A stretch of DNA of 64,000 bases, from contig WQZS01000015.1 of the NCBI GenBank assembly GCA_009780585.1, positions 1-64,000 on the forward strand, given 5' to 3'. The DNA comes from Defluviitaleaceae bacterium. GTDB taxonomy: Bacteria; Bacillota; Clostridia; Lachnospirales; WQUN01. The position numbers and the translations under genes are program-made. Within the stretch, counting starts at the first letter, position 1. Every line of letters starts with the position of its first letter. Of the stretch, positions 6,043 through 14,872 are shown piece by piece. The notes beneath the pieces are model-generated. The model ran no database searches and was not told where the DNA came from. It saw only the letters and a program-made list of their open reading frames with translations.

Positions 6043-7980
6043 ATGCAACATACGGCGTTCGGCGTTCGGGATAGGCATATCGTGGTCATCGGCGGCGGCC
6101 ATGCCGGATGTGAGGCGGCTTTGGCGGCGGCGCGGATAGGGGCGTTACGCGGCGCGGGCAAGATCCGCGTTACACTTTTCGCCATGAGCTTGGACGGCAT
6201 CGCCATGATGCCTTGCAACCCTTGCATCGGCGGCAGCGCGAAGGGGCATTTGGTGCGGGAAATCGACGCGCTGGGCGGTGAAATGGGTAAAGCCATCGAC
6301 GCGGCGTTTTTGCAAAGCCGGATGTTAAACACCGGAAAAGGGCCCGCCGTGTACAGCCTTCGCGCGCAAGCGGACAAGAAGCGGTACATGGCTTACATGA
6401 AACAAGCGTTGGAGCGCGAGCCGAATATCTCCCTGCGTGAAGGGGAGGTACGCGAACTCATTTTAGGGGAATCTTCCGATACTATCCGCGCCGTCCGCAC
6501 CGAATCGGGCGCGGTAGTGGCATGTGACGCGGTTATCGTTTGTTCGGGCACGTATTTGAACGCGCGCTGCCTGTATGGTGAAACGGTGAACGACGTCGGC
6601 CCCGGCGGGCAGCGTTCTTCGGGTATATTGAGTGAGTCGTTACGCCATTTGGGCTTTACGTTGCAACGGTTTAAAACGGGGACACCCGCGCGGGTACACC
6701 GCAGGAGCATCGACTTTACGAAGATGGCCGTACAACACGGCGACGATAAAATCGTGCCGTTCTCCTTCGGGACCGACCCCGCGAGCGTCACACGCGAGCA
6801 AATCCCTTGTTATTTGACGTATACCACCCCCCAAACGCATGACATCATCCGCGAAAACCTTCACCGCTCTGCCATGTACAGCGGTTTGATCTCCGCTACG
6901 GGTACGCGGTATTGCCCGTCCATTGAAGATAAAATCGTGCGCTTCGCCGATAAGGAACGGCATCCCGTATTCATCGAACCGGAAGGCGAGGATACGGAGG
7001 AAATGTACGTACAAGGCATGAGCTCGGCTTTACCGGAGGACGTACAGGAACGCGTCTACCGCAGCGTGCCGGGCTTGGAAAACGCGGAAATCATGCGCCC
7101 CGCCTACGCCATCGAATACGATTGCATCGACGCGACGCAATTGACGCTCGGCTTGGAAGCCAAGCACATCGGCGGCCTTTTCTTCGCGGGGCAGATATGC
7201 GGCTCCAGCGGCTACGAGGAAGCCGCCGCGCAAGGCTTGGTGGCAGGAATAAACGCGGCAATCGCCGCCAGCGGGAAAAACGCGCCCTTCCACATCACCC
7301 GCGCGCAAGGTTACATCGGCGTGCTGATCGACGACCTTGTGACGAAGGGTACCGCCGAACCCTACCGCATGATGACTTCCCGCGCGGAATACCGCCTGTT
7401 ATTACGGCAGGACAACGCCGACCTGCGCTTGACGCCGCTAGGTTACCAAGCCGGTTTGATCCCCGAGGAACGTTACGCCCGCTTCCAGCAAAAAAAAGAA
7501 TTGATCGAATCGGAAATCAAACGCTTGAAATCCACGACTATTTCCCCGGAAATAGCCAACCCCGTATTAGCGGAAAAAAACAGCACACCGCTTACTTCCG
7601 GCGCGAAATTGGCGGACTTGATCAAACGCCCGGAACTGGACTATTTGGATATCGCCCCCCTAACTCCGAACGACGGATCCCCCCTGCCTGATTTGCCTTC
7701 GTATGTACTCGACGCCGTCCGCGAGCAAGTCAACATCCAAATCAAATACGAAGGCTACATCGCCATGCAGCAAACCCAAGCCGAGCAAATCGCCAAGCTC
7801 GAATCGCGCCCGTTGCCGCCGGACTTGGATTACGAAGGCATTACCGGCTTGCGCATCGAAGCGCGGCAAAAACTGACGAAGCACCGCCCCGCCAATTTCG
7901 GCCAGGCCTCGCGGATTACGGGGGTTTCGCCCGCGGATTTGAGCATATTGATGATTTACTTAAAGGCAAGGCGTGGGTAG
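6043..7980 (+). CDS. mnmG: tRNA U34 modification enzyme MnmG (GidA)
   Basis: A 645-residue FAD enzyme that works with MnmE. The FAD-binding motif [10 protein letters not shown] is near residue 17, followed by [25 protein letters not shown], where the cysteine pattern is typical. Later come FRTGTPAR-like and [12 protein letters not shown] motifs and the C-terminal [18 protein letters not shown]. The start at 6043 is preceded by AAGTAAGGAA. An open frame extends further upstream, but that part lies inside mnmE and is not homologous. The gene begins 5 bp after mnmE and its last codons overlap the VanZ gene. Confidence 0.95.
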
Positions 7981-8934: not shown

Positions 8935-9594
8935 ATGCGGGAAAAATTGATAATAGATTGGCTTGAAGGCCAACGGACAGGCGAACGAGGCATAACGCTG
9001 ACAAAGGACCAGCTTCACTTATTGTCGCGCTTTCAGGAGCTCGTTTTGGAGAAGAATAAAAAAATGAACCTTACCGCCATCACTTCCGATGAAGACTTCG
9101 CGGTCAAGCATTTCATCGACAGCTTTACGTTGCTATCGTTTTTGCCGCAAGGGAAGTTTTCATTGCTGGACATCGGCACGGGCGCGGGCTTCCCCGGCGT
9201 ACCGTTAAAGATCGCTCGCCCGGATCTTCATCTCGTCTTATTAGATTCGGTGGGCAAGCGGATCGATTTCCTGCAGGACGCGTTGGAAACGTTGGGTGTT
9301 AAAGCCGAATACCTTCACACGCGCGCGGAGGACATACCGCGTTTGTTGCCCGGTGTTTTATTTGACGTGATCACCGCCCGCGCCGTCGCGCGGTTGGACA
9401 AGCTGTGCAAATACGCGCTGCCGCTCCTGGATACCGACGGGATATTTTTGGCGATGAAGGGGCCCGACGTTGCCGATGAATTGGAGGAAGCCGCGGACGC
9501 GCTTAAAAAGTACGGCGGCGTGGTACGGGAAGTAACTTGTCCCCTATTAGAGGACAAGTTGCGGCATACGATTGTAGTAATCGAAAAGTGCTGA
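8935..9594 (+). CDS. rsmG: 16S rRNA (guanine-527-N7) methyltransferase RsmG
   Basis: A 219-residue methyltransferase. The SAM-binding motif is LLDIGTGAGFPGVPLKIARP near residue 78, and the family segment ITARAVARLDKLCKYALPLL follows. Near the C-terminus, residues VTCPLLEDKL are encoded by a 27-bp palindrome (9534-9560) of the AACTT/AAGTT family found elsewhere in the window. The following LRHTIVVIEK fits the normal C-terminal strand, so the protein seems intact. The gene overlaps the next one. Confidence 0.94.
   Translation: MREKLIIDWLEGQRTGERGITLTKDQLHLLSRFQELVLEKNKKMNLTAITSDEDFAVKHFIDSFTLLSFLPQGKFSLLDIGTGAGFPGVPLKIARPDLHLVLLDSVGKRIDFLQDALETLGVKAEYLHTRAEDIPRLLPGVLFDVITARAVARLDKLCKYALPLLDTDGIFLAMKGPDVADELEEAADALKKYGGVVREVTCPLLEDKLRHTIVVIEKC
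9534..9560. repeat. 27-bp AACTT/AAGTT palindrome inside rsmG
   Basis: Begins AACTTGTCCCCTA and ends TAGAGGACAAGTT, with one mismatched pair. It has the same length and ends as the copies at 14.25-14.61, 16.85, 18.05 and 56.04-56.10 kb. It reads through in frame. Confidence 0.65.
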
Positions 9595-13629: not shown

Positions 13630-13891
13630 GATAAAAAAGCGTGTAAGGACAGCAGAAATCTGCCATCACCTACACACTTCGTAATCCATACAAACGAATA
13701 AGCCGTTATCGCCGACCGGCAACGACCCCATTATGACACGCCAAAACCCCCAATATTATTGAAACGGCGGTATTCTAGTGCTAAACTAAGGTCGCGTAGT
13801 GGCAGGCGCGAGCCTGTGTGTGTTAGGTGATGCTACGAATCCCTACACTCGCCGTGTGGTGCGTCAACACCTCACGGTCACTACGATTTAT
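13630..13891 (-). ncRNA. Candidate structured RNA with four-way junction
   Basis: Bases 13795-13801 (CGTAGTG) pair with 13879-13885 (CACTACG). They enclose three hairpins: 13803-13816 (5 bp, 4-base loop), 13820-13848 (GTGT-AGG stem), and 13852-13877 (9 bp with one T-T mismatch). The whole is a cloverleaf-like four-way junction. On the minus strand a promoter (13898-13926) would start the RNA at about 13891, just outside the closing stem. A terminator hairpin with TTTTTT (about 13633-13677) would end it about 260 nt later. On the plus strand the first loop is GCGA, a GNRA tetraloop, so the transcribed strand is not settled. It is not a tRNA, and tmRNA and RNase P signatures were not found. Confidence 0.4.
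13633..13677 (-). terminator. Intrinsic terminator
   Basis: On the minus strand GTGTAGG pairs with CCTTACAC around an inner GGCAG/CTGCT-type hairpin. The stem is followed by GCTTTTTT. Confidence 0.6.
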
Positions 13892-13897
13892 GTTACA

Positions 13898-13926
13898 AAC
13901 ATATTTTAACATATTTGTTAATTCAA
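13898..13926 (-). promoter_or_regulatory. Putative promoter with operator-like repeat
   Basis: On the minus strand: TTGAAT, 17 bp, TATGTT. ACAAATAT...ATATGTTTGT forms an inverted repeat over the spacer and -10. A similar ACAAATATGT direct repeat overlaps the promoter at 53779-53807, so a shared regulator is possible. Confidence 0.4.
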
Positions 13927-14033
13927 GCGCAAATTATCTTTTTCATTCACCGGGGAAGCGGGGATTGCTTTTTTTGTACGGGGTTGGTGCTGACGCGGTT
14001 TATACAAAGAGTGGTTTATGTGGCTTCCACACC

Positions 14034-14205
14034 GAGGGGGTGGGGGTACTCCAACGCTGCGCTGGACGAAATTGGGCGGAAATCGGCTCCGTACGCGAAG
14101 TGGTTGCATCGGTTGCAAGCACCCGATGCCAACCACATAACGCGTCCGTTCGCCGATTTCCGCCCAATTTCGTAGGCGCTGCTTATGGAGTACCCCCGCC
14201 CCTTC
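14034..14205. repeat. Long modular palindrome H1
   Basis: A near-perfect inverted repeat of about 170 bp whose weaker similarity extends to about 14011-14230. Arms read GGGGGTACTCC...GGAGTACCCCC outermost. Next come CGAAATTGGGCGG and its complement, then TCGGCTCCGTACGCG...CGCGTCCGTTCGCCG, then GTGGTTGCATCGG...CCGATGCCAACCAC around a short loop. It shares constant blocks with H2 at 14661-14872. Open frames across it are by-products of the repeat. Confidence 0.75.
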
Positions 14206-14252
14206 GGACGGATGTGTCCGTATAAACTACGAAGGATTTAACCCCTATCTTC

Positions 14253-14279
14253 AACTTTTGCTCAAGTTGGGCAGAAGTT
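14253..14279. repeat. 27-bp AACTT/AAGTT palindrome, decayed
   Basis: Starts AACTTTTGCTC and ends GGGCAGAAGTT. Two arm positions no longer pair. Same length and ends as the other copies. Confidence 0.5.
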
Positions 14280-14298
14280 AACCCACAGTATTTTGCCT

Positions 14299-14325
14299 GA
14301 CTTGTCCCCCACCGGGGGACAAGTT
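14299..14325. repeat. 27-bp palindrome (GACTT/AAGTT)
   Basis: GACTTGTCCCCC, a 3-base centre, then GGGGGACAAGTT. The inner stem is related to the copy inside rsmG. It directly abuts the next palindrome with no gap. Confidence 0.65.
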
Positions 14326-14352
14326 AACCTTTGCTCGCGGCGAGCAAAAGTT
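14326..14352. repeat. 27-bp palindrome (AACCT/AAGTT)
   Basis: AACCTTTGCTCGC followed by GCGAGCAAAAGTT. It abuts the previous palindrome and runs into the broken LysM frame. Confidence 0.65.
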
Positions 14353-14518
14353 TTAACCAAAGTGCGTTGCTTTTGCGCAGCGGTGATACATTAAGCAGCA
14401 TCGCTCGCCACTTCTACGGAGACGCACACGAATGGGGCAGAATCCGCGAGGCTAACGCCCCCGCGTCGGCACAAACAACATGATATTCGAAGGACAATGG
14501 TTGATCATTCCGAAATAA
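14329..14518 (+). pseudogene. LysM-domain remnant, frameshifted
   Basis: Translation gives SGDTLSSIARHFYGDAHEW and then GRIREANAP, a clear LysM peptidoglycan-binding domain. The frame then shifts by one base near 14465-14475 and continues as NNMIFEGQWLIIPK before a stop at 14516-14518. A terminator follows at 14537. The 5' end merges into the 27-bp palindromes, with no start codon or ribosome binding site of quality. It looks like the tail of a larger, lost protein such as a phage-tail or cell-wall protein. Confidence 0.65.
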
Positions 14519-14536
14519 TGTTCATTCAAAACACAA

Positions 14537-14572
14537 GACCGCTTGTCCATTTATCGGGCAGGCGGTTTTTAT
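14537..14572 (+). terminator. Intrinsic terminator after LysM remnant
   Basis: ACCGCTTGTCC pairs with GGGCAGGCGGT and is followed by TTTTTATG. Confidence 0.6.
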
Positions 14573-14586
14573 GTGTTTCTTATGTC

Positions 14587-14614
14587 AACTTCCGGACCTA
14601 TTAGGTCCGAAGTT
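14587..14614. repeat. AACTT/AAGTT palindrome, 28 bp
   Basis: AACTTCCGGACCTA followed by TTAGGTCCGAAGTT. One extra C makes it 28 bp instead of 27. The inner stem CGGACC/GGTCCG differs from all other copies but is self-complementary. Confidence 0.6.
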
Positions 14615-14660
14615 ACCGCCCCCAAAGTATCTTCTTCCCTACGCCCCAACCGCCTATTGC

Positions 14661-14872
14661 GGGGGGCGTAACGCCGTACATGCGCGGGCGGCGCGGCGGG
14701 CGGATGTTCCATAAGCCGCGCCTACGAAAACGGGTGTCGGGCGGCGAACGGGCGCGTTACGTGGTTGGCATCGGGCATTTATGACCGATGCAACCACTTC
14801 GCGCACGGAGCCGACCGGCGCCCGTTTTCGCTGAGCGCGGCGTTGGAACATCCGCCCGCCGCGCTGCCCCCC
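14661..14872. repeat. Long modular palindrome H2
   Basis: An inverted repeat of about 200 bp, reversed relative to H1. The outer stem GGCGGGCGGATGTTCC/GGAACATCCGCC and part of the middle stem differ from H1 yet pair internally. The blocks TCCAACGC, GCGCT, CGAAA, TCGGCTCCGT, GAAGTGGTTGCATCGG, CCCGATGCCAACCAC and CCGTTCGCCG are shared. One pair is A-T in H1 (ACGCG/CGCGT) and G-C in H2 (GCGCG/CGCGC). It ends right at the methyltransferase stop codon and could also act as its terminator. Confidence 0.75.

Follow-up and report, generated by a model that had tools for sequence, protein, structure and literature searches.

REPINs and REP-BIMEs, which are extragenic, high-copy and non-autonomous repeats moved by RAYT (Y1) transposases, are built as a unit of two imperfect palindromes in inverted orientation, with compensatory changes in their hairpins and with single copies that are likely remnants (PMC3116915). 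The palindromes described here, from a Defluviitaleaceae bacterium (source genome, G000), its sister species (G002) and another species of the same genus (G004), share this plan, as 29 of the 32 close-neighbour palindromes face each other in inverted doublets of imperfect palindromes (p = 7.5e-15 against 25%). However, REP palindromes measure ~20-40 bp, whereas those of the present family are 160-200 bp long and fold as three-storey hairpins; the units also carry accessory genes, unlike REPINs, and no RAYT/Y1 transposase is present in G000, G002 or G004, so that size, cargo and the missing RAYT exclude them from the REPINs. Integron cassettes are similar in having accessory single-gene cargo and an imperfect palindrome (attC) whose stem varies, which contains unpaired bases and of which one strand folds better, but each carries one attC and stands in a tandem array, while here two palindromes face each other at dispersed loci, no array or platform was recognised, and no integron integrase scored over the cut-off. 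MITEs and transporter-IS elements also have inverted ends, are non-autonomous and carry passenger genes, whereas here each end is a long structured palindrome, inspection showed no target-site duplication and no parental IS was found. IS200/IS605 elements and PATEs resemble the family in their hairpin ends with a bulged base and in possible ssDNA recognition, but the ends here are far longer inverted repeats facing each other, and TnpA was not found. The family is thus best filed among palindrome-ended non-autonomous elements that are REPIN-like in plan.

The window, i.e. the whole analysed stretch of 64,000 nucleotides, contains two members of the family, H1 and H2. H1, the three-storey palindrome at the left end (14032..14207, plus strand; inverted repeats I5 and I3; covariance model match of 181 bits), consists of an outer stem (14032-14053/14186-14207), a middle stem (14066-14087/14152-14173) and a constant tip (14097..14136) in which GAAGTGGTTGCATCGG and CCCGATGCCAACCAC flank the loop and the 3' arm has a single extra unpaired base. 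The 16-mer of the tip has 26 exact and 18 near copies in G000, giving 44 matches, several of them at contig ends. H2, the three-storey palindrome at the right end (14686..14869, minus strand; inverted repeats I2 and I6; 177 bits), has its constant tip at 14761..14800 on the minus strand. The two are inverted relative to each other, with arms of 166 nt that are 76% mutually complementary. The RNA fold energy is -143.5 kcal/mol for H1 (z -14.0) and -158.2 kcal/mol for H2 (z -13.2), and in neither case were any of 200 dinucleotide shuffles as good. These values bear out the initial annotation in its view of H1 and H2 as real long palindromes. It had also placed the constant blocks in the same order in both elements, which is true of GAAGTGGTTGCATCGG and CCCGATGCCAACCAC once H2 is reverse-complemented; H2 should be read on the minus strand, a correction that matters because the facing-pair layout is a feature of the whole family.

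Immediately inside H1 there is a 27-nt hairpin of the form AACTT..AAGTT (14253..14279, no strand assigned), followed by two more small hairpins of similar build but imperfect at their ends (14299..14353, no strand assigned; inverted repeats I4 and I13, direct repeat D1). Next comes an open stretch (14361..14480, plus strand) that runs into a stop, its translation showing weak similarity to Pfam LysM (E 0.0015, 18.9 bits, below the cut-off of 20.9), with more LysM-like sequence read by eye in another frame up to ~14525. A terminator-like hairpin with a T tail lies 3' of this cargo remnant (14535..14569, plus strand; the count of such sites for the region is not above that in shuffles), and sequence inspection places a further small hairpin immediately inside H2 (14585..14613, no strand assigned). 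The 27-nt hairpins, which consist of AACTT, six variable nucleotides, a loop, six matched nucleotides and AAGTT, come after many palindrome copies and occur in the window at 9534, 14253, 16849, 18051 and 56071; in G000 they number 45 over 600 kb of loci, compared to 1 in shuffles, and 246 kb of G004 has none.

What the initial annotation missed is that H1 and H2 form one unit of 0.84 kb as the facing ends of a cassette, and that such cassettes elsewhere carry exchangeable genes; the copy in the window has degenerated and retains the LysM-like remnant as its sole cargo. Our preferred reading, to which we give a probability of roughly 0.55, is that a small mobile gene cassette, itself non-autonomous, is bounded by H1 and H2 as its facing ends. 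It is based on the conserved fold, the facing pairs, cargo differences at the same sites, reused promoter and 3' modules, the occupied or empty state of orthologous sites and palindrome loss, while the lack of a mobiliser and of evident target-site duplications, the single copies, the gene-free units and the deletions count against it.

A covariance model built from 33 copies gave 121 hits in G000 on both strands, and the loci read contain at least 61 distinct palindromes in G000, 24 in G002 and 28 in G004. The model also gave dozens of hits in each of G002 and G004. The carriers are uncultured bacteria. A few each were detected in genomes G003 and G001, and a few in three genomes from two other genera of the same taxonomic family. 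When the order was searched with the model, 8 out of 392 genomes were positive, all within that taxonomic family, and the other 384 genomes tested had no palindromes; the viral contigs searched gave no match either. In a scan of genome contigs, the one source of the exact core outside G000 was Defluviitaleaceae bacterium Lab288P3bin217, the sister species. This bin, which the G002 contigs match, we take from its name to have come out of a survey of termite gut microbes. Many of the palindromes stand alone, or their partner falls past the contig end.

All intact copies have a common layout. From the tip outward it comprises the tip helix, whose 3' arm carries one additional base, then a loop (AA/RTAA) and a short helix, then a second loop, which is asymmetric, and the middle stem, and lastly a third loop and the outer stem. 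Across 33 aligned copies, 93% of cells are paired (99.6% in the tip helix), both sides have changed in 44 of 65 base pairs, and the double-changed cells number 216 compared to 15-40 with the pairing slid. Divergent copies with the same storeys are present in other species and genera, so the suggestion that the fold is kept while the stem sequence varies is upheld by covariation far beyond the window. Copies with unpaired variable parts, which would have contradicted it, were looked for: intact copies pair internally, and the exceptions are deletion derivatives or truncated elements, namely the centre-deleted copies L119 ~5540 and L170:8902-8988, together with L052:16931-17091 near a contig end, which has one outer arm absent.

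The fold had been attributed either to cruciform DNA or to a long RNA hairpin, and a long structured RNA as the selected entity, either a hairpin ncRNA or an RNase III substrate, would account for the strong covariation. It would also agree with a strand bias: the complement of the GAAGTGGTTG strand is the better-folding one in all 34 copies from other genomes and in 65 of the 85 from G000/G002. This bias, however, is not decisive for the choice between ssDNA and RNA, because the conserved loops probably account for part of it by a fixed increment. G-U pairs are usually better tolerated in RNA helices, but here, in G000, G002 and G004, they account for just 2-4% of the pairs whichever strand is read, and one-sided G-U steps are almost absent. 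Pair types counted in well-paired columns of G000/G002, from a set of 119 collected elements, are 4375 Watson-Crick against 34 G-T and 58 A-C, the mismatch types together being ~2%. Such a near-absence of G-T pairs argues for symmetry at the DNA level rather than maintenance as RNA, and the window has no Rfam family at the gathering score, so that the fold stands but a conventional structured RNA as its cause is very unlikely. Hits to miRNA precursors in the window at a relaxed Rfam threshold were set aside as weak artefacts typical of any long hairpin. The evidence points to palindrome arms kept matched at the DNA level, either by selection for a foldable strand or by arm-to-arm copying of DNA. 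Templated symmetrisation would fit the rarity of G-T and A-C intermediates as well as the copy L076:4464, in which one outer loop has been converted to the sequence of the opposite arm.

In G000 and G002 a unit starts with an A palindrome, the outer arms of which extend into a T-rich stretch, followed by small hairpins, a promoter-like module and an ORF, and then by a 3' module at or shortly past the stop codon, a terminator-like hairpin and an inverted B palindrome. Shared promoter and 3' modules are joined to exchanged genes: in L086 and L176 the same promoter module extends to the start codon although the encoded proteins are different. In many units the cargo belongs to accessory families including deaminase, acetyltransferase, methyltransferase and PIN toxin, with the Pfam names dCMP_cyt_deam_1, Acetyltransf_3, Adenyl_transf, Methyltransf_25, PIN, His_Phos_1, DUF1905, DUF3795, HD and LRR_5 among those assigned. 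Some units are gene-free, with 48-175 bp between the palindromes, and those of G004 are mainly short and without cargo, 143-278 bp separating the palindromes. Short tandem repeats of the GCAA or GCAG type are located at L057 ~7260-7330, L082 ~7900 and L131 ~6690, in units whose cargo includes LRR-type lipoproteins and is possibly phase-variable.

Occupancy of orthologous sites was closely compared between species at a few loci. At the site of the window unit, G002 has no palindromes, and a gene judged by eye to encode an ABC-F-type ATPase lies between a leader-like element and a methyltransferase gene. In G004 a gap of 16 bp separates fliH from fliI, and G046 likewise has no insert, while in G000 a palindrome, an adenylyltransferase, a deaminase and an acetyltransferase gene and a second palindrome lie between them; G002 retains one palindrome and the deaminase, and in place of the second palindrome has a single CCCCGCGGGG, the 10-mer found in G000 at either border of that palindrome. 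L054/L083 and L059/L084 are the same sites with different cargo. L119/L087 has lost the centre of a palindrome and L059/L084 an entire one, and these two differences, like that between L123 and L174, are deletions. Since several species differences are of this kind, movement itself was never observed, and the compared sequences indicate insertion and turnover, though palindromes suffer deletions anyway.

Many copies lie directly 3' of a gene (in G000 as well as in G004, one follows a gene read as rpoC), which, with the T-rich stretch of the type-A outer arms, would suit vertically inherited intergenic palindromes that serve the chromosome (transcription end, mRNA protection, binding of gyrase or a nucleoid protein) and border recombining accessory genes by chance. 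We consider this rather unlikely in view of the facing-pair layout, the differing occupancy of orthologous sites, the reuse of end modules with different genes and the lack of the T tail in most types. The role of intrinsic terminator was rejected for the family as a whole, the T-rich tail being limited to type-A ends. Palindrome pairs also adjoin a gene read as dnaA, on opposite sides in two species (L121:7332-7701, L136:1721-2329).

The shared flanks on both sides of the cargo, up to several hundred bp long, could alternatively mean that genes are swapped solely by homologous recombination between the palindromic ends, these being an old family of repeats, with no dedicated transposition. 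The absence of a mobilising enzyme from the searches agrees with this, as does L055:10305-10467, where the core is inverted relative to the outer stem and which sits at a rearrangement between G000 and G002. It is nevertheless unlikely as the full explanation, as it accounts neither for the spread of ~60 pairs and singles to different sites nor for the insertion at the fliH-fliI junction; recombination between repeated ends may explain part of the cargo exchange.

As the initial annotation had noted for the window, no transposase adjoins the palindromes in any of the copies read, and the units read encode neither a transposase nor a recombinase. No Y1 transposase (PF01797) was detected in G000, G002, G004, G003 or G001, and one was detected in G046. 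Nothing scored over the cut-off for integron integrase (TIGR02249) in six genomes including G000, G002 and G004, the weak hits probably being other tyrosine recombinases, and there is no reverse transcriptase (RVT_1) in G000 or G004 of the kind that a retron or another RT-driven system has. Clustering of the 361 ORFs inside units revealed no recurring transposase, the largest cluster consisting of spurious ORFs that cross palindromes. Target-site duplications were not evident in the outer flanks inspected by eye, where the exact ends are uncertain.

The pairs have the look of a mobile gene cassette of a kind not recognised before. Under the cassette reading, each end is a long imperfect palindrome that, as a single strand, adopts a hairpin of three storeys; its stems vary but match, its internal loops and tip are fixed, and a single base is bulged. 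A trans-acting host enzyme would recognise the folded strand, exposed as an extruded cruciform or as lagging-strand ssDNA, at both ends and move whatever lies between them. The arms would stay identical either because one is copied from the other or because a foldable strand is selected for, and ordinary homologous recombination, acting on the repeated ends, could further exchange the cargo of a settled unit. Recognition of the ends by shape is what we infer from this architecture. Our more tentative suggestion, doubtful as it stands, is a new class of cassettes in which an enzyme moves any gene lying between two structured palindromes that face each other, guided by the shape of the DNA (its storeys, loops and bulge) and not by sequence, so that the stems are free to drift. 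If true, this would be a route of gene capture outside integrons in Gram-positive gut bacteria, and the more than 100 diverged yet foldable elements would form a natural data set on hairpin recognition by shape. With elements at contig ends in this assembly, such units may hide variable genes from short-read genomes.

A leader-like element is located beside the unit (window 13633-13913, minus strand). It has no Rfam match, is repeated in all four of the other genomes of the genus that were searched and, by sequence, also lies inside the palindrome unit L146 in G046. Its 5' part, GTGTAGGGA, could pair with a terminator-like 3' hairpin (TCCCTACAC in other copies) in an attenuator-like manner.
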